Source: Anaeromyxobacter sp. Fw109-5
GTDB taxonomy: Bacteria > Myxococcota > Myxococcia > Myxococcales > Anaeromyxobacteraceae
Assembly: GCF_000017505.1 (NCBI RefSeq)
Contig: NC_009675.1
Span: 372,001 to 436,000, forward strand
Reading direction: 5' to 3'
Length of the DNA stretch: 64,000 bases
Shown here: piece by piece, positions 4,277 through 57,713 of the stretch
Position numbering within the stretch: the stretch's first letter is position 1
How the letters are laid out: each line of letters opens with the position of its first letter
Translations under genes and position numbers: made by a program
Notes under the pieces: generated by a model
The model's database searches: none
Told to the model about the DNA's origin: nothing
The model's input: only the letters and a program-made list of their open reading frames with translations

Positions 4277-5524
4277 GTGTGCCCAGCATGGGCGTGATCA
4301 GAAAGCCAGACGCGGGACGGCGACCGCCTACCGGACGTCCGTGGGCCACGACGGCGCGAAGGGCCGAACGAGCAGGAGGGTGGAACGACCGTGAGCCTCG
4401 AACGCGCCAAGCACCAGAAGGCCAGGCAACTGGCGCTGCCGCTGGAGACGAGGGGTGAAGCCCCGCGGTGCCAGCGGAGCGGTGAAGCGCGGTCGGCGGT
4501 GGACGGAGACGGACGCCCGGGAACGGACCGCCTGATGGAAGAGGTGGTCCAGCGCGGCAACGCCAAGGCGGCGCTGAAGCGCGTGAGGCAGAACAAGGCA
4601 GCCCCGGCATCGACGGGATGACCCTGCTGGAACTGCCGGAGCATCTGGCCGAGCACCCGTTCGCCATGACGCCGGCCTCGAGGTAGCGCCGAATCAACCC
4701 CAGCATCCGCTTGTCCGCGATCCTCCCCGCCAGCTTCCCCATCAGTGGTGATGGAGAGGCACGAGGGGACGCCGCAAGGCGGGCCGCTCTCGCCGCTCCT
4801 CGCGAACGTGCTCCTCGACGAGGTGGACAAGGAGTTGGAGAACGCGGGCACGCGTTCGTGCGCTACGCCGACGACTGCAACGTGTACGTGCGGTCCCGGC
4901 GGGCAGGCGAGCGGGTGATGGAGACGCTCTACGCGCGGCTCCGGCTACGGGTCAACGAGGCGAAGAGCGCGGTGGCGCGCCCGCAGGACCGCAAGTTCCT
5001 CGGTTACAGCTTCTGGTACGCCAAGGGAGGAGAGGTCAGGCGGCGCATCGCGCCGAAGGCCCTTGAAGCGATGAAGGACCGGGTCCGGGAGATCACCGCC
5101 CGGAACGGTGGCAGGTCCATGGAGCGGGTGATCGAGGAGCTGCGGGGCTACCTCGCCGGCTGGAGGGAGTACTTCCGGCTGGCGGACACGCCGCGCGTGC
5201 TCAGCGACCTCGACGAGTGGATCGGGCACCGCGTGCGCGTGGTTCACCTCGAGCAGTGGAAACGGGGCACCACCGTATACCGGGAGTTGCGGGCGAGAGG
5301 CATGGGCCCGGTCTCCGCGGCGAAGGTGGCAGTCAACGCCCGCCGCTGGTGGAAGAACGCGACCATGGCGATCCACGTCGCGCTGCCCACGAGCTACTTC
5401 GACCGAGCAGGAGTCCCGAGGCTGGCCCGCTGACCTCAACCGCTCGAACCGCCGGATGCGGACCCGCACGTCCGGTGGTGTGGGAGGGGAGTAGCCGGGA
5501 ACACCGGCCACCCCCTATCCCGAT
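4277..5524 (+). mobile_element. Degraded group II intron with rearranged maturase gene
   Basis: The 5' end GTGTGCCCAGCATGGGCG fits the GUGYG consensus of bacterial group II introns. Near the 3' end, about 5446-5484, is a domain V-like hairpin: a CCGCCGGATGCGG strand, a GACCC turn, then CCGCACGTCCGGTGGTGTG. A domain VI-like hairpin follows, and the element ends near CCCGAT at 5519-5524. Between them lies a broken reverse transcriptase/maturase gene. Total length is about 1.25 kb against roughly 1.8-2 kb for intact relatives, so several hundred bases are lost. It sits right behind a terminator hairpin. The intron class is not settled from sequence alone; ends are inferred to within a few bases. 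Confidence 0.8.
4391..5433 (+). pseudogene. ltrA: Group II intron reverse transcriptase/maturase, inactivated
   Basis: The N-terminus from GTG 4391 reads as a normal LtrA-like protein (Met-Ser-Leu-Glu-Arg-Ala-Lys). A missing G at about 4597 shifts the frame before the expected Gly-Ile-Asp-Gly-Met-Thr. Sequence resumes in another frame to Leu-Ala-Glu-His (4656). About 4657-4742 is inverted: its reverse complement encodes MGKLAGRIADKRMLGLIRRY and Leu-Glu-Ala-Gly-Val-Met-Ala-Asn-Gly, a piece that belongs on the + strand. The stretch before it (RT core, roughly 100 residues) is gone. Coding resumes at 4745 (Val-Val-Met-Glu-Arg, Gly-Thr-Pro-Gln-Gly-Gly), has a second missing G near 4842, then keeps Tyr-Ala-Asp-Asp, the X/maturase domain and the C-terminus intact to 5433. 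No HNH endonuclease domain is seen. Confidence 0.9.
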
Positions 5525-27326: not shown

Positions 27327-27409
27327 GACCGCGATCGCGACCCCGACCGCGAGCCCGACCTCGACCTCGACCCCGACCCCGACCCCGACCTCGACCCCCG
27401 ACCGCGACC
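27327..27409 (+). repeat. Hexanucleotide array A (GACCCC/GACCGC/GACCTC)
   Basis: About 14 tandem six-base units, mostly GACCCC with GACCGC and GACCTC variants, starting 5 bases after the thioesterase stop codon. It is non-coding as far as can be seen. Confidence 0.85.
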
Positions 27410-27603
27410 TTGTCATTCATCACATCGGCTCGTCCTGGACTCGGGACGAGGTGCCGACCGCGCGACCGCGGTGGGCAGGCGCGAGGGAGCACTACGAGCC
27501 AGGGAAGCCGGCTACGAGGGGCCGGAGAGGCGGCGTCGCCGCGCGTCCGCCGCGTCGCCGCGCCGCGCTGCGGTCGGCTTAGCTCCCGTTCCGCCGTCCG
27601 CGG

Positions 27604-28179
27604 TCACGTTGCGTACAAGCCCTGCTGAATGGCAGCTGGGGCGGTGCCGGCATGCCCCGTCCGCTCGGAGACGCTCTCACGCCGGAAGCGATCCATGTGC
27701 TCGCGCCCGTAGGTCTGTTCGGCGTGCAACATGTTGTGGGACTTGCAGGCGACCCGGAGGTTCTCGACCGTCGAGGGTCCGCCCAGGGCCTGCGGCTGGA
27801 TGTGGTCGAGCTCCAGCTGCCAGCGGCTATTGCAGCGCCGCCCATCCGGAGCGACCCACGCGCAGCGTCCGCCGTCGCGCTTCCAGACCTCGCGCCGCAC
27901 TATCGCCGGGATCGTGCTCGTGGGCGCGGCGGGCTCGGCAGAGGGCCGTGGGTCCCGGTCCGCCTTCCGCTGCCGCTGCGGGAGGACCGCGCCCTTGCGC
28001 TTGCCGTGCTTCTCGATGGCGCAGCGGATGGCCTCGCCCCTTCGCCGTCCACGCGGCGCGCCGGACGCGCAAACCGTGCCCTGCCTGCGCTCGCGAGGAG
28101 CGTGCTCTCGACGTGCCGCGGACGTCGGAGCCCGTTTCGCCTCGAACCTCGTCAAGAGCGCAACGTTCACCCACCGCAC
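27604..28179 (-). pseudogene. C-terminal HNH endonuclease fragment
   Basis: The conserved part, about residues 90-165 of this frame, reads Val-Trp-Lys-Arg-Asp-Gly-Gly-Arg-Cys-Ala-Trp, Arg-Arg-Cys-Asn-Ser, Leu-Asp-His-Ile-Gln-Pro, Asn-Leu-Arg-Val-Ala-Cys and His-Asn-Met-Leu-His-Ala-Glu: a zinc-bound HNH nuclease domain. In family relatives it is the tail of a 300+ residue protein. Here the N-terminal part is missing or scrambled and the region is flanked by hexanucleotide arrays, so it is most likely a decayed gene. A short functional HNH protein cannot be excluded. Confidence 0.6.
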
Positions 28180-28724
28180 CTGGGACTCGCGTGGCTCGCA
28201 AGAGCTGTCGCTGGAGATAGCAGGAACTATAAGTGAATGCCGCTAGACAGTTGCGCGACCTTCCTCGGACCTGCTCCGCCCGCTCCCCAGTCCTCGCGTC
28301 GACGGCGACGAAGACCCGCCCGAGTGACGCGCGAGGCGCGCCCGGAACCGAGCGCTTCTCCCCTCGATGCCCGAGCCCCGTCGGCGTACGGGCGACGGCA
28401 CACGACCTGCCCGAATGCGCGTGCTGTCGCCGTGGGATGTGATGAATCGAGAGGCCCCGACCCCGACCCCGACCGCGACCGCGACCGCGACCGCGACCGC
28501 GACCGCGACCGCGACCCCGACCGCGACCGCGACCCCGACCGCGACCCCGACCCCGACCGCGACCGCGACCGCGACCGCGACCGCGACCCCGACCGCGACC
28601 CCGACCGCGACCCCGACCCCGACCGCGACCGCGACCGCGACCCCGACCGCGACCGCGACCGCGGTCACCCGGAGCGAAGTCGCTGAAGACACGTCGAGCA
28701 GCGCAGAGCCTAGACTGGTCCGCC
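28180..28724. other. Non-coding region around hexanucleotide array B
   Basis: About 545 bases between the HNH fragment and spmB. The left part (28200-28260) is locally less GC-rich than the surroundings. The right part is dominated by array B. Reading frames here on both strands are made of repeat-encoded Thr-Ala/Thr-Pro, Asp-Arg/Asp-Pro or Val-Ala/Val-Gly and have no ribosome site, so no gene is called. Confidence 0.6.
28456..28662 (+). repeat. Hexanucleotide array B (GACCGC/GACCCC), about 34 units
   Basis: Roughly 34 tandem six-base units of only two kinds, GACCGC (majority) and GACCCC, in an irregular order. It is the longest array in the window, with almost no other point variation. It lies downstream of spmB and upstream of the HNH fragment. 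Confidence 0.92.
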
Positions 28725-29264
28725 CTAGCCCGCTCCGAACACGAGCCGCACCGCGACCACCGCCGCCGCGAACCCGGCGAGGTCGGCGAGGAGCGCGGCG
28801 GGGAGGGCGTGGCGGTAGCGAGATACGCCGATCGCCCCGAAGTAGACCGCGAGCACGTAGAAGGTGGTCTCGGTCGAGCCGGCCATCACCGACACGAGCC
28901 GGCCGGCGTAGCCGTCCGGGCCCTCGGCGCGGAGCACGTCCGCGACGACGCCCAGGGCGCCGCCGCCGGAGAGCGGCCGCACGAGGACGAGGGGGACCAC
29001 GCTCGCCGGGACGCCGGCGGCCTCGGACAAGGGGGCGAGGAGCGCGGCGAAGGAGTCCATCGCCCCGGAGGCGCGCAGCATCCCGAGCGCGACGAGGATC
29101 GCGACGAGCGAGGGGATGATCCGCACGGCGGTCTCGAACCCCTGCTTCGCGCCGTCCACGAAGGCGGGGTAAACCTTCACGCCGCGGGCGAGCGCCACCG
29201 CGGGGACGCCCGCGAGGAGCAGCGGGATCGCCCAGATCGAGAGCGCGTCGAGGGCGGTCTTCAT
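28725..29264 (-). CDS. spmB: SpmB-like nucleoside-recognition membrane protein
   Basis: A 179-residue membrane protein with 5 or so helices. Typical features are Val-Tyr-Pro-Ala-Phe-Val-Asp-Gly-Ala-Lys-Gln-Gly-Phe near residue 35, Arg-Pro-Leu-Ser-Gly-Gly-Gly-Ala-Leu-Gly near 100 and Ser-Thr-Glu-Thr-Thr-Phe-Tyr-Val near 138. In Bacillus SpmA/SpmB affect spore core dehydration; in non-endospore-formers their role is not known and a transport function is assumed. ATG at 29264 with GAGGGGG upstream. spmA lies upstream on the same strand, separated by 220 bases that contain a dispersed repeat. Confidence 0.85.
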   Translation of the reverse strand: MKTALDALSIWAIPLLLAGVPAVALARGVKVYPAFVDGAKQGFETAVRIIPSLVAILVALGMLRASGAMDSFAALLAPLSEAAGVPASVVPLVLVRPLSGGGALGVVADVLRAEGPDGYAGRLVSVMAGSTETTFYVLAVYFGAIGVSRYRHALPAALLADLAGFAAAVVAVRLVFGAG

Positions 29265-29293
29265 GGCGACACCCCCTCGCATCGAGCTGCTGC

Positions 29294-29462
29294 GGCGCAC
29301 GCTGCCTGCCTGCGGGGGGCGGACTCCTCCCTGCGCTGCTCGACGTGCCTTCCAGGCACGCCTGCGCTGCTCGGTGGTCGTGTGCCCCGCTCTGGCCCGT
29401 TCATCCCGAGCGTAGCGCCCAGGGCGCGAAGTCGAGGGACGGCATCGTGTGCCTCGCAACGC
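29294..29462. repeat. Composite dispersed repeat, copy 1 (between spmA and spmB)
   Basis: The left part (from GCACGCTGCCTGCCTGCGG) resembles the outer arm found at 55983. The right part holds a REP-like core: arm CCCGTTCATCCCGAGCGTAG (29396-29415), palindromic centre CGCCCAGGGCG (29416-29426), arm CGAAGTCGAGGGACGGC (29427-29443), followed by ATCGTGTGCCTCGC, as after the other copies. Confidence 0.8.
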
Positions 29463-29484
29463 TCGACGCAGAGGGGTGGCGCCA

Positions 29485-30090
29485 TCAGCACGGCTCGCCC
29501 TCCGCCGGCGCGGCCTCGGGCGTGGCGCGGGCGAGGAGCTTCGCCGTCAGGATCGCCGCGGTCGCCCCGCACACCGAGGCGAGGATCGTCGCCCCCAGGA
29601 TCTCGGCGGGCGCGCGCGAGCCGGCGGCGGCGCGGAGCGCGATGACGCTCGCCGGCACGAGCTGCACGGAGGCGGTGTTCATGGCGCAGAAGAGCGCCTG
29701 CGCGTTCGAGGCGGTGCCCGGCCGCGGGTTCAGGGTCTCGAGCGCCTGCATCGCCTTCACGCCGAAGGGCGTCACGGCGTTGCCGAGCCCGAGCAGGTTC
29801 GCCGACAGGTTCATGAGCATGGCGCCCATGGCCGGGTGCTCCGGCGGCACCTCGGGGAACAGCCGGCGCATGACGGGTCGCGCCGCGCGCGCGAGCGCCC
29901 GCACGAGGCCGGCCTCCTCCGCGACGCGCATCAGCCCCAGCCAGAGCGCCATGGCGCCGGCGAGCCCGATCGAGAGGGTGACCGCCTTGCCGGCCGACTC
30001 CATCGCGGCGGGGGTGAGCGCGGCCATCCGTCCGTTCACCGCGGCGGCGACCACCGCCACGGCCACGAGAACGGTCCAGATGACGCCCAT
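29485..30090 (-). CDS. spmA: SpmA-like nucleoside-recognition membrane protein
   Basis: A 201-residue membrane protein with about 6 helices. Family features: Asn-Gly-Arg-Met near residue 20, Leu-Trp-Leu-Gly-Leu-Met-Arg-Val-Ala-Glu-Glu-Ala-Gly, and the motif Asn-Leu-Ser-Ala-Asn-Leu-Leu-Gly-Leu-Gly-Asn-Ala near 105. It is the partner of SpmB. The ATG at 30090 starts Gly-Val-Ile-Trp-Thr-Val; the longer open frame upstream overlaps the divergent lipoprotein gene and is rejected. Confidence 0.86.
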   Translation of the reverse strand: MGVIWTVLVAVAVVAAAVNGRMAALTPAAMESAGKAVTLSIGLAGAMALWLGLMRVAEEAGLVRALARAARPVMRRLFPEVPPEHPAMGAMLMNLSANLLGLGNAVTPFGVKAMQALETLNPRPGTASNAQALFCAMNTASVQLVPASVIALRAAAGSRAPAEILGATILASVCGATAAILTAKLLARATPEAAPAEGEPC

Positions 30091-31699: not shown

Positions 31700-31804
31700 C
31701 CCGCCGCGGCGATGCGCTATCATCCCGGCCCCTCGCGCGAGAGGGCGCCCATCCCGGGCGCCGTGCCCCTGCCGCGGGCTCGCGACTCGAGGGACGGAGG
31801 CCGC

Positions 31805-32209
31805 ATGAACGGGCTCGACCACGTCGCCATCCTCGTCGCCGACCTCGACGCCGCCATCCGGCTCTACCGGGACGTCTACGGCCTCGAGCTCGCCGAGGTG
31901 GAGGAGGTCCCGACCGAGAAGGTGCGCGTCGCGATCTTCGGCCACGGCGCCGGCCGCATCGAGCTCGTCTCGCCGAGCGGGCCGGACAGCCCGATGGCGA
32001 AGGCGATCGAGAAGCGCGGCGAGGGGCTGCACCACGTCTGCCTCGAGGTGCCGGACATCGAGCAGGCGATGGCGGCGCTCCGCGCGCAGGGGGCCCCGCT
32101 GCTCGACGAGAAGCCGCGCCCGGGCGCCGGCGGGTCGAAGGTCGCCTTCGTCCATCCCAAGGGGAGCCGCGGCGTCCTGGTCGAGCTGAAGCAGGGCGGC
32201 GGCTACTAA
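31805..32209 (+). CDS. mce: Methylmalonyl-CoA epimerase
   Basis: A 134-residue vicinal-oxygen-chelate enzyme that interconverts (2R)- and (2S)-methylmalonyl-CoA between propionyl-CoA carboxylase and the B12-dependent mutase. The two glyoxalase-fold halves show metal ligands Asp-His-Val-Ala at the N-terminus (His6), Arg-Ile-Glu-Leu near residue 52, Leu-His-His-Val-Cys near 77 and Val-Leu-Val-Glu-Leu near the end. Its length is that of the family. The mutase genes are not nearby. A dispersed repeat follows the stop directly. Confidence 0.92.
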   Translation: MNGLDHVAILVADLDAAIRLYRDVYGLELAEVEEVPTEKVRVAIFGHGAGRIELVSPSGPDSPMAKAIEKRGEGLHHVCLEVPDIEQAMAALRAQGAPLLDEKPRPGAGGSKVAFVHPKGSRGVLVELKQGGGY

Positions 32210-32213
32210 TCGG

Positions 32214-32343
32214 CGCACGATCCCGGGCCTGCGGCGGGCGTCCTCGCTCCTTGCGCCTGCGGCGTACGGAAGCAGTACGCCTCGGCGCGCGTCGCTGCGG
32301 TAGCCCGCCTCGGCTCCGGTCTCGTGCGCCTCGCCGCTCCGAG
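32214..32343. repeat. Composite dispersed repeat, copy 2 (short form)
   Basis: GCACGATCCCGGGCCTGCGG and GCGTCCTCGCTCCTTGCGCC, then the small hairpin GCGTAC...GTACGC (32262-32280), then CTCGGCGCGCGTCGCTGCGG and CCCGCCTCGG, then TCTCGTGCGCCTCGC. The same outer sequence occurs at 55982-56196, but there two REP-like cores fill the places that are short here. Confidence 0.85.
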
Positions 32344-36317: not shown

Positions 36318-36610
36318 GCCGCCTCGCCGCCCTCGCCGCGGGCTGCCTCCTCGCAGCGTGCGGAGTGAAGGCGCCGCCGCGGCCGCCGGAGCCGGAGCGC
36401 GGCGATACCTCGACCCCGTCCCCGCCCGCGACCCCGCCCGCGACCCCGCCCGCGACCCCGCCCGCGACCCCGCCCGCGACCCCGACCGCGACCCCGACCC
36501 CGACCGCGACCCCGACCGCGACCCCGACCGCGACCCCGACCTCGACCCCGTCCGCGACCGCGTCCGCGACCCCGACCTCGACCCCGTCCGCGTCGACTCC
36601 CTGCCCATGA
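36314..36610 (+). CDS. Small LptM-like lipoprotein with hexanucleotide-encoded tail
   Basis: A 98-residue protein between argH and lysA. GTG start overlaps the argH stop (GTGA at 36314-36317), and its TGA overlaps the lysA start (ATGA at 36607-36610). Signal sequence with lipobox Leu-Leu-Ala-Ala-Cys-Gly-Val-Lys (Cys at about 16) and then a Pro-rich segment. In many proteobacteria a small lipoprotein of the LptM/LppL type sits beside lysA or dapF and helps LPS export. From residue 33 on the protein is only Thr, Pro, Ala and Ser, produced by GACCCC/GACCGC repeats, so the tail is probably a repeat expansion. Confidence 0.75.
36409..36600 (+). repeat. Hexanucleotide array C, inside the LptM-like gene
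   Basis: A tandem array built on GACCCC, GACCGC, GACCTC and GTCCGC, with a 12-base higher-order unit (GCGACCCCGCCC) repeated about five times at 36428-36482. It is read in the frame that gives Ala-Thr-Pro-Pro and Thr-Ala-Thr-Pro. Confidence 0.9.
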
Positions 36611-37875
36611 ACCACTTCCAGCGCAAGAAGGGCGTCCTGCACGCGGAGGCGATCCCGCTCGAGCGGCTCGCCGAGCGGTACGGCACGCCGCTGTACGTCT
36701 ACTCCACGGCGACCCTCACCCGGCACTGGAAGGTGCTGCACCGCTCGCTCGCCGGGATCCGCCACGTCGTCTGCTACGCGGTGAAGGCGAACGCGAACCT
36801 CGCGCTGCTCGCGCGCTTCGCGAAGCTCGGCTCCGGGTTCGACATCGTCTCGGCGGGCGAGCTCTACCGCGTCCTCAAGGCCGGCGGCGACCCGCGCAAG
36901 GTGGTGTTCAGCGGCGTCGGCAAGCGCGACGACGAGATCGCCTTCGCGCTGGAGTCGGGGGTGCGCGTCCTCAACGTGGAGAGCGCCGGCGAGCTCGCGC
37001 GCATCTCGATCGTGGCCCGCCGCATGGGCGTGCGCGCCCCCATCGCGCTGCGGGTGAACCCCGACGTGGACCCGAAGACGCACCCCTACATCTCGACCGG
37101 GCTGCGCGAGAACAAGTTCGGCGTCTCGGTGGACGAGGCGCGGCGGCTCTACCCGCTCGCCGCCAAGGACGAGGCGCTCCACGTCATGGGGATCGCCTCG
37201 CACATCGGCTCGCAGATCACCACCGTGAAGCCGTTCCTCGACGCCATCGACCGCGTGCTGTCGCTCGCGCGCGAGCTCGAGAAGCAGGGCATCCCGCTCG
37301 CCCACCTCGACGTGGGGGGCGGGCTCGGCATCCGCTACAAGGACGAGGACCCGCCGCACCCCGACGAGTACGGCGCGGCCATCCGCAAGGCGCTCGCCCG
37401 CTGGAAGGGCGAGGTGCTCCTCGAGCCGGGCCGCGTGCTGGTGGGCAACGCTGGCGTGCTCGTCACGCGCGTGCTGCACGTGAAGCGGAGCGGCCGGAAG
37501 ACGTTCGTGGTGGTGGACGCGGCGATGAACGACCTCGTCCGGCCCGCCATCTACGACGCCCACCACGACATCGAGCCCGTCGGCCCTCCGAGGGAGGGCG
37601 AGCGGGAGGTCGTGGCCGACGTCGTGGGGCCGATCTGCGAGTCCTCCGACTTCCTCGCCCGGAAGCGCCGCATGCCGGAGCCCGTACCGGGCGACCTCCT
37701 CGCCGTCCGCTCCGCCGGCGCCTACGGCTTCTCGATGTCCTCGAACTACAACGCGCGCCCGCGGGCGGCCGAGGTGCTCGTGGACGGCGACCAGGCGCTC
37801 CTCGCGCGCCGGCGCGAGACCTACGCGGACCTGGTCCGCGGCGAGGAGCCGTCCCCCTCGCCCGAGAGGGTATGA
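36607..37875 (+). CDS. lysA: Diaminopimelate decarboxylase
   Basis: A 422-residue PLP enzyme (alanine-racemase-like TIM barrel) that makes L-lysine from meso-diaminopimelate. The PLP lysine is Lys60 in Tyr-Ala-Val-Lys-Ala-Asn. Also visible are His-Ile-Gly-Ser-Gln-Ile near 199, the PLP phosphate loop Gly-Gly-Gly-Leu-Gly-Ile near 237, Glu-Pro-Gly-Arg near 275 and Cys-Glu-Ser-Ser-Asp near 344 with the active-site Cys. Start overlaps the preceding lipoprotein stop. Followed by dapA after a spacer with a possible promoter. Confidence 0.95.
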   Translation: MNHFQRKKGVLHAEAIPLERLAERYGTPLYVYSTATLTRHWKVLHRSLAGIRHVVCYAVKANANLALLARFAKLGSGFDIVSAGELYRVLKAGGDPRKVVFSGVGKRDDEIAFALESGVRVLNVESAGELARISIVARRMGVRAPIALRVNPDVDPKTHPYISTGLRENKFGVSVDEARRLYPLAAKDEALHVMGIASHIGSQITTVKPFLDAIDRVLSLARELEKQGIPLAHLDVGGGLGIRYKDEDPPHPDEYGAAIRKALARWKGEVLLEPGRVLVGNAGVLVTRVLHVKRSGRKTFVVVDAAMNDLVRPAIYDAHHDIEPVGPPREGEREVVADVVGPICESSDFLARKRRMPEPVPGDLLAVRSAGAYGFSMSSNYNARPRAAEVLVDGDQALLARRRETYADLVRGEEPSPSPERV

Positions 37876-54380: not shown

Positions 54381-55390
54381 GCCCCACCCCGCGTGACCGC
54401 GACGAGGCGGGCGAGCTTGTCGGACGCGGCGCCGCGATCGACGGCCTCCGCGCCGAGCCGCACCCCCTCGCGCAGGTCGGCGGCCGCGCCGGCCGCGACG
54501 AGCGCCGCCGCCGCGTTCGCGAGCGCGGCGTCGCGCGGCCCGCCCTGCTGGCCGGCGAGGACGTCCGCCAGGATGCGCGCGTTCCGGTCGGCGTCGCCGC
54601 CGGCGATCTCGGCCTCCTCGTGCCGGCGGAGGCCGAGGTCCTCCGGCACCATGGCGTAGCGCTCGCACTCGCCCGCGCGCACCTCGCACACGTGCGTCAT
54701 GCCGGTGACCGCGATCTCGTCGAGCCCCTCGCCGTGGACGACGAACGCGTGCGCGGCGCCGAGCGCGGCGAGCACGCCGCCGAGGATCGGCACCCAGCGC
54801 GGCTCGTAGACGCCCAGGACCTGGTAGCGCGCGCCGGCCGGGTTGGCGAGCGGCCCGAGCAGGTTGAAGACGGTCCGGACCCCGAGCTCGCGCCGGATGC
54901 CGGCCACCGCCTTGAACGCAGGGTGCAGGCGCGGCGCGAACAGGAAGCCGATGCCGACCTCCTCGATGGCGCGCTCCACCACGTCCTTCGCCGCGTCCAC
55001 GTCCACGCCCAGCGCGGCGAGCACGTCCGCCGAGCCCGAGCGCGAGGAGACCGCGCGGTTGCCGTGCTTCGCCACGGTCACGCCGGCGCCCGCCACGATG
55101 AACGCGGCGGTGGTGGAGATGTTGAAGGTGTGCCGCCCGTCGCCGCCGGTCCCGCAGGTGTCCACGAACACGTCCCGGTCCACGCGGATGGGGTCGACGC
55201 GGGCCCGCATCACCTCCGCCGCGCCGGCGATCTCCTCCACGGTCTCGCCCTTCAGCCGCAGCGCCGCGAGGAACGCGCCCACCTGCGCCGGCGTCGCGCC
55301 GCCGTCCGCGATCTCGTCCATCACCGCGGACATCTCCGCGCGCGCGAGGTCGTGGCGGTCGAGGAGCCGCGTCAGGGCCTGCTGGATCAT
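54377..55390 (-). CDS. trpD: Anthranilate phosphoribosyltransferase
   Basis: A 337-residue enzyme that joins anthranilate to PRPP. PRPP-binding motif Asp-Thr-Cys-Gly-Thr-Gly-Gly-Asp near residue 78, Lys-His-Gly-Asn-Arg near 106 and Asn-Leu-Leu-Gly-Pro-Leu-Ala-Asn-Pro near 175 are intact. It is not fused to trpG. ATG overlaps the trpG stop. Confidence 0.95.
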
Positions 55391-55968
55391 CGCGCCCTCC
55401 CGCCGTCGAGGCGGCGGAGCCAGTTGCCGAGGAGCCGCTTGCCCTCGGCGGTCAGGATCGACTCGGGGTGGAACTGGACGCCCTCCACGTCCAGCGCCCG
55501 GTGCCGCAGCCCCATGATCTCTTCCTCCTCGGTCCAGGCGGTGATCTCGAGGGCCGCGGGCAACGTCTCCCGCTCGACGACGAGCGAGTGGTAGCGCCCC
55601 GCCTCGAACGGCGACGGCAGCCCCGCGAACACGCCCGCCCCGGCGTGCAGGACCGGGCTCGCCTTCCCGTGCACGATGCGCGCGTTGCGGATCACCTTGC
55701 CCCCGAAGGCCTGGCCGATGGCCTGGTGCCCCAGGCACACGCCGAGGATGGGCAGCTCGCCCGCGAGCGCGGCGATGGCCTCGAGCGTCACGCCCGCGTC
55801 GTCCGGCGTGCACGGCCCGGGGGAGAGCACGAGGCCGTCCGGGCGGCGCGCCTGGATCCCCGCGACGTCGATGGCGTCGTTGCGGAACACCTCGACGTCG
55901 GCGCCGAGCTCGCCGAGGTACTGGACCAGGTTGAAGGTGAACGAGTCGTAGTTGTCCAGCAGGAGCAC
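55387..55968 (-). CDS. trpG: Anthranilate synthase glutamine amidotransferase subunit
   Basis: A 193-residue class I amidotransferase that supplies ammonia to TrpE. N-terminus [13 protein letters not shown]; oxyanion Ser-Pro-Gly-Pro-Cys near 51; catalytic Cys in Leu-Gly-Val-Cys-Leu-Gly-His-Gln near 78; His and Glu in Phe-His-Pro-Glu-Ser near 170. GTG at 55968 is the only suitable start; no clear ribosome site precedes it because the dispersed repeat begins about 13 bases upstream. Confidence 0.94.
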
Positions 55969-55980
55969 CCGCGCAGCACC

Positions 55981-56200
55981 GCCGCACGATGCCTGCCTGC
56001 GGCGGGCGTCCTCGCTCCTTGCGCCTGCGTCCCTCGACTCCGGCGCGCTGCGCGCGCCTACGCTCGGGACGAGCGGGGTATCGAAGGCGCCTCGGCGCGC
56101 GTCGCTGCGGTTGCCCGCCTCGGGCCCGTTCATCCCGAGCGTAGGTCCCGCGCTTGCGCGGGACCGAAGTCGAGGGACGGCCTCGTGCGCCTCGCGAGAA
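55981..56200. repeat. Composite dispersed repeat, copy 3 (long form, in the trp operon)
   Basis: The outer sequence is that of copy 2: GCACGATGCCTGCCTGCGG..., CTCGGCGCGCGTCGCTGCGG, CTCGTGCGCCTCGC. It holds two REP-like cores. One at about 56028-56070 is reversed (arms CGTCCCTCGACTC and CTACGCTCGGGA, centre a CGCGC palindrome). One at 56125-56181 is forward (arm CCCGTTCATCCCGAGCGTAG, centre GTCCCGCG/CGCGGGAC hairpin, arm CGAAGTCGAGGGACGGC). The two cores face each other in opposite orientation. It fills most of the 263-base trpE-trpG gap. Confidence 0.85.
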
Positions 56201-56231
56201 GCGAACGTGCCTCGCTGTCCGTTCCGGCCGC

Positions 56232-57713
56232 TCATCGCTCGCCCCTGCGCGGCCGGCGCCGGCTCGCCTTCGGCGTGCGCGCCGCCACGGTGCGCGCCGC
56301 CGGGGCCGGGGGCCGCGCGACGGCGTCGAGCACGCGAGACTCGGCCTGGGCCACCGCCGTGAACACCGCGCGCGCCTTGTTGAGGGTCTCCTGGTACTCC
56401 GCCTCGGGGTCGGAGTCGTACACGAGGCCGCCGCCCGCCTGGACCGACACGCGCCTGCCGCGCGCCATGAGCGTGCGGATGGCGATGCACATCTCCATGT
56501 CGCCGCCGCGGTCGAAGTAGCCGACCGCGCCGGCGTAGGGTCCCCGCCGCGCCGGCTCCAGCTCGTCGATGATCTCCATCGCCCGCACCTTGGGCGAGCC
56601 GGAGACCGTGCCGGCGGGGAAGCCCGCCCGCAGCACGTCCACCGCGCCGAGGCCGGCGGCGAGCCTGCCCTTCACCTCCGAGACGAGGTGCATGACGTGC
56701 GAGTACCGCTCCACGGTCTTGAGCGCGGTGACGCGCACGCTGCCCACCGCGGAGACGCGGCCGACGTCGTTGCGGCCGAGGTCCACGAGCATGACGTGCT
56801 CGGCGTTCTCCTTCGGGTCGGCGCGCAGCTCCGCCTCGAGCCGCGCGTCCTCCGCCGCGTCCCCGCCGCGCTTGCGCGTGCCCGCGATGGGCCGGAGCGT
56901 CACCTCGCCGTCCTCGAGCTTGATGAGCGTCTCGGGCGAGGAGCCGACGAGGGCGCGCTCCCCGTCCTTCAGGAAGAACAGGTACGGCGAGGGGTTCACG
57001 CGCCGCAGCGCGCGGTAGATCTCGAACGGCGGGACCGAGACCTCGGCGTCGAAGCGCTGCGAGAGCACGATCTGCTGGCAGTCCCCGGCCCGGACGTAGT
57101 CCTTCGCGCGCTCGACCGCGGCGAGGTAGTCGGGCTTCGCCACGCGGGGGACGAGCTCGGACGGCTTCGCGGCGCGCCGCGCCCGGCGGTCCTCGAGCGG
57201 GGCGGCGAGGAGCGCGAGCCGCGCCCGGATGCGCTTCACGGCGCGCGCGTAGAGCGCCCGGGGATCGTCGCCCTCGTCGCAGCGGACCTCGCAGATGACG
57301 TGCAGCGAGTGGCGCCGGTTGTCGAACGCCACCACCTCGTCGAAGTCCATGAGCAGCAGGTCGGGGAACCCGAGCTCGTCCGGGTTCGCGATCGGCACGC
57401 GCGGCTCGAACAGCTTCACCGCGTCGTAGCCGACGTGCCCGACCAGCCCGCCCGCGAAGCGGGGCGTGCCCGGGACGCGCACGGCCGTGTGCGTGGCGAG
57501 CGCGGCGCGCACCGCGGCGAGGGGGTCGCCGCGATCGCCGAGCTTGTGGCGCAGCACGCTCTTGGGGCCGGCGCCGAGGAAGCTGAACCGCGCGCTGCGC
57601 TCGCCGCCCTCGACCGACTCGAGCAGGAACGCCTGCCGCTCGCCGCGGGAGAGCTTCAGGAACGCGGAGACCGGCGTCTCGGTGTCGGCGTCGACCTCGA
57701 CGCGCACCGGCAC
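56232..57713 (-). CDS. trpE: Anthranilate synthase component I (5' end uncertain)
   Basis: A 493-residue chorismate-utilising enzyme from GTG 57713. Thr-Pro-Val-Ser-Ala-Phe-Leu-Lys-Leu (tryptophan-feedback site, Ser in the LLES-like segment nearby), Cys-Gln-Gln-Ile-Val-Leu-Ser-Gln-Arg, Ile-Ala-Gly-Thr-Arg-Lys-Arg-Gly and Gly-Ser-Pro-Lys-Val-Arg-Ala-Met-Glu are present. A Lys/Arg/Ala-rich C-terminal tail of about 25 residues follows. The frame upstream of GTG still encodes family-like residues (Pro-Asp-Leu-Asp-Ala-Phe-Leu-Ser-Leu) to a panD stop at 57795 but has no ATG/GTG/TTG; see findings. Confidence 0.93.

Follow-up and report, generated by a model that had tools for sequence, protein, structure and literature searches.

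A layered palindromic repeat inside trpG of Anaeromyxobacter sp. Fw109-5 and the probable exchange of cassettes at its tip

Repeats of the window and the trpG copy

The window, a stretch of 64,000 nucleotides from the genome of Anaeromyxobacter sp. Fw109-5, contains three palindromic repeats, referred to below by position as the 29-kb, 32-kb and 56-kb copies. None of them is matched by an Rfam family at gathering score. The 56-kb copy is located in the trp operon, where the stop codon of trpE (56232-57713, reverse strand; stop at 56232) overlaps the ATG (56233-56235) of trpG (55387-56235, reverse strand), and the repeat begins a few codons inside the latter gene. An earlier note, made from the window alone, described two of the copies as separating genes that are normally adjacent. 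The description is correct for spmA and spmB, but trpE and trpG overlap and the repeat belongs to the 5' coding end of trpG.

The 56-kb copy (55981-56196, forward strand) is a palindromic element of a family designated A, and carries two REP-like cores in inverted orientation. The 5' arm of the outer element (55981-56029, forward) is followed by core 1 (56030-56076, forward), located at the tip of the palindrome in place of a 19-nt hairpin. The middle arm (56090-56123, forward) precedes core 2 (56124-56180, reverse), inverted relative to core 1 and located in the 3' arm, at the CTCCGG site, and the element terminates with CCTCGTGCGCCTCGCG (56181-56196, forward). The 32-kb copy (32211-32334, forward) is a core-free element of the same family, 3 nt past the stop codon of a VOC-family gene (31712-32209). 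It reads directly as 5' arm, 19-nt tip hairpin GCGTACGGAAGCAGTACGC (32262-32280, forward; type i cassette), middle arm, CTCCGG and 3' end. The outer parts were found where the earlier note had located them, and GCGTACGGAAGCAGTACGC and CTCCGG of the 32-kb copy correspond in the 56-kb copy to the two cores that it had termed reversed (56030-56076) and forward (56124-56180).

The 29-kb copy (29263-29486, forward) fills the interval between the spmA stop and the spmB start; in the relatives examined the two genes are adjacent, without the element. It displays 92-96% identity over approximately 134 bp to four other dispersed copies in Fw109-5. Its REP-like core (29396-29442, reverse) is missing from four paralogues. 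The earlier note took this repeat as a diverged copy of the outer sequence. The repeat is longer and belongs to a distinct sister family, B, which carries extra outer arms.

The trpG frame remains open across the entire 56-kb element, and the glutamine amidotransferase domain of TrpG begins at residue 90. The sequence VLLLDNY is preceded by 89 residues in Fw109-5, with 76 extra in-frame codons relative to A. terrae (13 residues), and by approximately 8 residues in two other genomes (G001 and G002). An intermediate number is present in A. soli, whose insert keeps a 19-nt stretch of the middle arm, GCGCCTCGGCGCGCGTCGC. The longer TrpG is a prediction and a start codon downstream of the repeat is also possible; we infer that the longer protein is made and functional. 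The case suggests that a repeat may considerably extend the N-terminus of a biosynthetic enzyme.

The outer element, its tip cassettes and the REP-like cores

A search of the whole Fw109-5 genome, a single contig of 5,277,990 bp, returned two other near-full-length composites (E values 4e-74 and 1e-62), those at 515 kb and 3961 kb being the other two-core copies, at least six full outer copies devoid of a tip core, and many cores standing alone or in partial form. Given these two composites and the additional outer copies, the 56-kb repeat is far beyond chance. Family A itself is a dispersed palindrome of approximately 124 bp, present in tens of copies in Fw109-5 and also in A. soli SG29 (G005) and A. 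terrae SG22 (G008), two element-rich relatives. In 21 core-free copies the element folds into a single long hairpin of 36 pairs, in which pairing holds in 98% of the cells. Two-sided changes are observed at 14 of these pairs, one of which is encountered as G-C, A-T and C-G, and the two-sided covariation cells amount to 52, versus 13.5 when shuffled and no more than 11 in slid controls. At 691 kb (G000:C1:691720-692167), four apparently identical units form a tandem array with a spacing of 108 bp. The outer element was matched in 11 of 195 sampled genomes of the phylum, all 11 originating from the same order, in which its distribution is sporadic. In some of these 11 genomes (G058 and G161), as in family B, additional palindromic arms, which vary from lineage to lineage, surround the outer element; with the cores counted in, the layering therefore reaches at least three levels.

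What occupies the tip varies between copies with the same arms and may be a hairpin of 19 nt, a cassette of 45 nt, a REP-like core or an entire HNH-endonuclease element. Cassettes of type i (the 19-nt hairpin, n=22), ii (n=11) and iii (n=3) are scattered over the tree of the arms, and the 14 cassette changes counted on this poorly resolved tree (23 of 33 inner branches open) are no fewer than the 12.3 obtained with shuffled labels. Neighboring tandem units can also carry different tips (three loci, L144, L170 and L189).

The cores vary in the same manner. The core motif is matched exactly 46 times in Fw109-5, 51 times in G004, 12 times in A. terrae and once in A. soli, an approximately 50-fold difference in load between genomes in which outer copies persist, A. 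soli keeping tens of them. A comparison at the same locus is provided at 515 kb, where the element consists of the arms and both cores in Fw109-5 and of the core-free form, with the 19-nt hairpin and CTCCGG, in A. terrae. The flanks of this locus are 91% and 87% identical between the two genomes, and the 50-nt 5' arms display a single difference, the GGGTG and GGCTCCTG variants being common to both. The addition of a small element into an older repeat, as proposed in the earlier note, is supported by this locus. The direction of the change is nevertheless based on two states without an outgroup, and the same picture would arise if A. terrae had lost its cores through conversion by a core-free copy. 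At 3961 kb, three cores are present in one Fw109-5 element, and the counterparts in A. terrae and A. soli are both degenerate and without cores. Core content also varies between genomes at 4442 kb, 1983 kb and 791 kb, with less certain junctions.

Most cores read CGTCCCTCGAC, in which CG is common to the adjoining sequence, and cores 1 and 2, as inverted copies, are predicted to pair together. A search for target duplications had been proposed in the earlier note; upon comparison by eye of filled and orthologous sites, no consistent duplication was found to flank either the cores or the outer repeat. The tip core takes the place of the 19-nt hairpin rather than splitting it, and recombination or gene conversion between copies is therefore at least as likely as transposition. 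Late addition of the cores and exchange at the tip are favored by these sequence comparisons, which do not indicate an enzyme and do not prove the direction of change at any single locus.

The interpretation preferred here, with a probability of approximately 0.7, is that family A is an older dispersed palindrome whose tip acts as a swap point, that the cores were added later, and that the 56-kb copy is a layered product lying in frame within trpG. Family A would already have occupied many sites, mostly just past stop codons, in the ancestor of Fw109-5, A. soli and A. terrae. The REP-like cores, of which solitary copies are also present in the genome, would have joined it later, at the tip, beside CCTGCG motifs and at the CTCCGG of the 3' arm. 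They would have arrived by recombination or gene conversion between copies following breaks at the tip, perhaps introduced by HNH enzymes or by hairpin nucleases.

Alternatively, the composites might form a lineage of their own, spread as complete units through transposition or gene conversion, without any recent insertion of cores in place. The nearly identical core stems of the 515-kb and 3961-kb composites and the many near-identical tip-core copies of G004 are in line with this explanation. The arms are however not grouped by cassette, and those of the 515-kb copy agree with the A. terrae orthologue, with which they share private variants, and not with the other composites. Such a separate lineage is possible but rather doubtful; the shared core stems do indicate that part of the spread consisted in the copying of whole composites.

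Position past stop codons and the remaining explanations

At 31 of 41 sites the 5' end of the element is located 0-10 nt past the stop codon of an open frame that has the same orientation and a length of 60 codons or more; the proportion is approximate, since these sites, judged independent, derive from search hits whose orthologues were merged by hand. Applied to the 3' end, the same test returned 3 of 34, and shifted positions gave 0-2 of 41 (Fisher p = 5e-9). The orthologous sites of relatives often display another sequence or a short 5' remnant right after the stop. As copies cluster in this manner, some of the same-locus pairs could result from independent insertions; the 515-kb pair, 45-46 nt from the stop, is less open to this reading.

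Such a position, in one orientation, together with the strong two-sided covariation, is also what would be expected if the elements were kept as RNA structures, i.e. as terminators or stabilizers of the upstream transcript, with selection on the hairpin rather than mobility accounting for both observations. No wobble bias toward the transcribed strand is apparent when pairs are predicted from both strands (GU 3, AC 4), and the same gene ends occur in relatives without the element. An apparent GU excess (24 versus 5 cells), a possible sign of selection at the RNA level, vanished to 3 versus 4 once both-strand pairs were used. Conservation as RNA is judged unlikely to be the explanation, and is in any case only a partial rival as it is compatible with mobility.

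An ancestral long composite, from which the core-free copies arose by deletion of the cores, is considerably less credible. Composites with two cores do recur with these at the same positions, and deletions between CCTGCG repeats are observed, for example in the 2392-kb copy. Against this, all core-free copies share an intact tip hairpin and CTCCGG, which independent deletions would not restore, and they far outnumber the composites in three genomes; cores moreover occur alone. The earlier note had reasoned that an invariable arrangement of cores and outer sequence would denote one long repeat; core-free, tip-core-only, arm-core-only and multi-core forms were found. Mobilization of the cores and of the outer repeat by RAYT transposases, also suggested in that note, is highly improbable: RAYT-like genes exist in all nine genomes of the genus (five matches in Fw109-5 and 14 in G004, at loci including L030, L211 and L219), but they are flanked by an unrelated GAGAGTAA-type repeat, lack the outer element, and have only sparse core-like matches nearby, away from the RAYT borders.

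An HNH-endonuclease element at palindrome tips and relation to known systems

Some family A copies of A. soli are split exactly at the tip by a stretch of 1.3-1.8 kb encoding an HNH endonuclease. The corresponding element, 1.3-2.1 kb overall, inserts into the tips of family A and of other palindromes, and its matches number 38 in Fw109-5, 16 in A. soli and 26 in A. terrae, several being fragments. Outside arrays, most loci with both ends identified display terminal repeats of the type ATTCGTCACA...TGTGACGAAT, bordered by direct repeats of 9-11 bp that are centered on the dyad of the palindrome: ACGGAAGCAGT in family A, GCCTTCCAGGC and GCCTTACAGGC in family B, and GGGCGCAGCCC or its complement in a third palindrome. 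Exceptions are a family B insertion without duplication (L303), a diverged duplication (L295) and two loci with little or none (L296 and L346). Most Fw109-5 copies are located within CGACC arrays, where a duplication is indistinguishable from the array. The five A. soli sites compared correspond in relatives to regions without the HNH element and, in four of the five, also without the palindrome. In the window, a decayed HNH element with terminal inverted repeats occupies 27410-28453 on the reverse strand (HNH match at 27616-28035). It is flanked by CGACC arrays at 27332-27410 and 28454-28663, a situation similar to that of most Fw109-5 HNH elements examined.

In Pfam, the proteins of the element are recognized by HNH models alone, and a sequence comparison with PDB chains returned no match. 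A full-length IscB match, as expected of IscB/HEARO, was not obtained: the IscB model scored 23.7 bits over the HNH stretch only, with a cut-off of 175. Tentatively, and with more doubt than confidence, the family may be viewed as an autonomous mobile element having an HNH nuclease as its sole protein, which would recognize palindrome tips as hairpins or cruciforms and insert with a dyad-centered 11-bp duplication; the nicking of tips would then drive cassette exchange and the layered growth of palindromes. No description of an element combining an HNH endonuclease, terminal inverted repeats, target duplication and a palindrome was found in the literature searched, to which most subscription journals were external, and its novelty is provisional. 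The same literature contained no paper on REP or intergenic repeats of Anaeromyxobacter and no occurrence of the core motif strings.

Precedents exist for REPs located in palindromes, for REPs lacking a transposase and for in-frame palindromes (PMC3733652; also PMC10969869). The present system is a variant of this kind, and adds to it an exchange point at the tip and the comparison of genomes at the same locus. Small REPs inside longer palindromes were described as GTAG-15 of A. variabilis, CGTC-1 of H. neapolitanus and GTAG-23 of T. roseum (PMC3733652). Core-free palindromes are abundant in Anaeromyxobacter, whereas they were not found in A. variabilis or H. neapolitanus, and the Anaeromyxobacter tip differs from these palindromes in accepting several cassette types, one locus being caught with and without cores. 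The CGTC REPs of the same study likewise lack a flanking transposase. In this superfamily the terminal CGTC tag is followed by an 8-9 bp stem almost always opening with complementary AT, in contrast to the Anaeromyxobacter cores, which have no AT after the candidate tag and variable stems. The REP-RAYT arrangement, in which the RAYT gene is flanked by the same REP, was not found in Anaeromyxobacter. Cores 1 and 2 resemble the paired inverted units of a BIME or REPIN, except that what separates them is the middle arm of an older repeat, one that occurs core-free. Like MITEs, family A is short, dispersed and non-coding with terminal inverted repeats (GGCGCACGA/TCGTGCGCC); unlike them, it is palindromic over nearly its whole length. 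No consistent target duplication was seen by eye. The trpG copy recalls the palindromic elements of Rickettsia, being a palindromic repeat in frame in a conserved protein gene, but it is the only copy established in frame, most others being located just past stop codons. The system bears on how REP-like repeats spread without a dedicated transposase and on how layered palindromes form. A candidate agent inserting precisely at tips occurs in the same genomes, and the question is testable in culturable soil bacteria.

Elsewhere in the window, a further CGACC/CGCCC array is located at 36375-36664, and a match to the group II intron family (Rfam RF00029, 42.6 bits) was recorded at 5447-5524.
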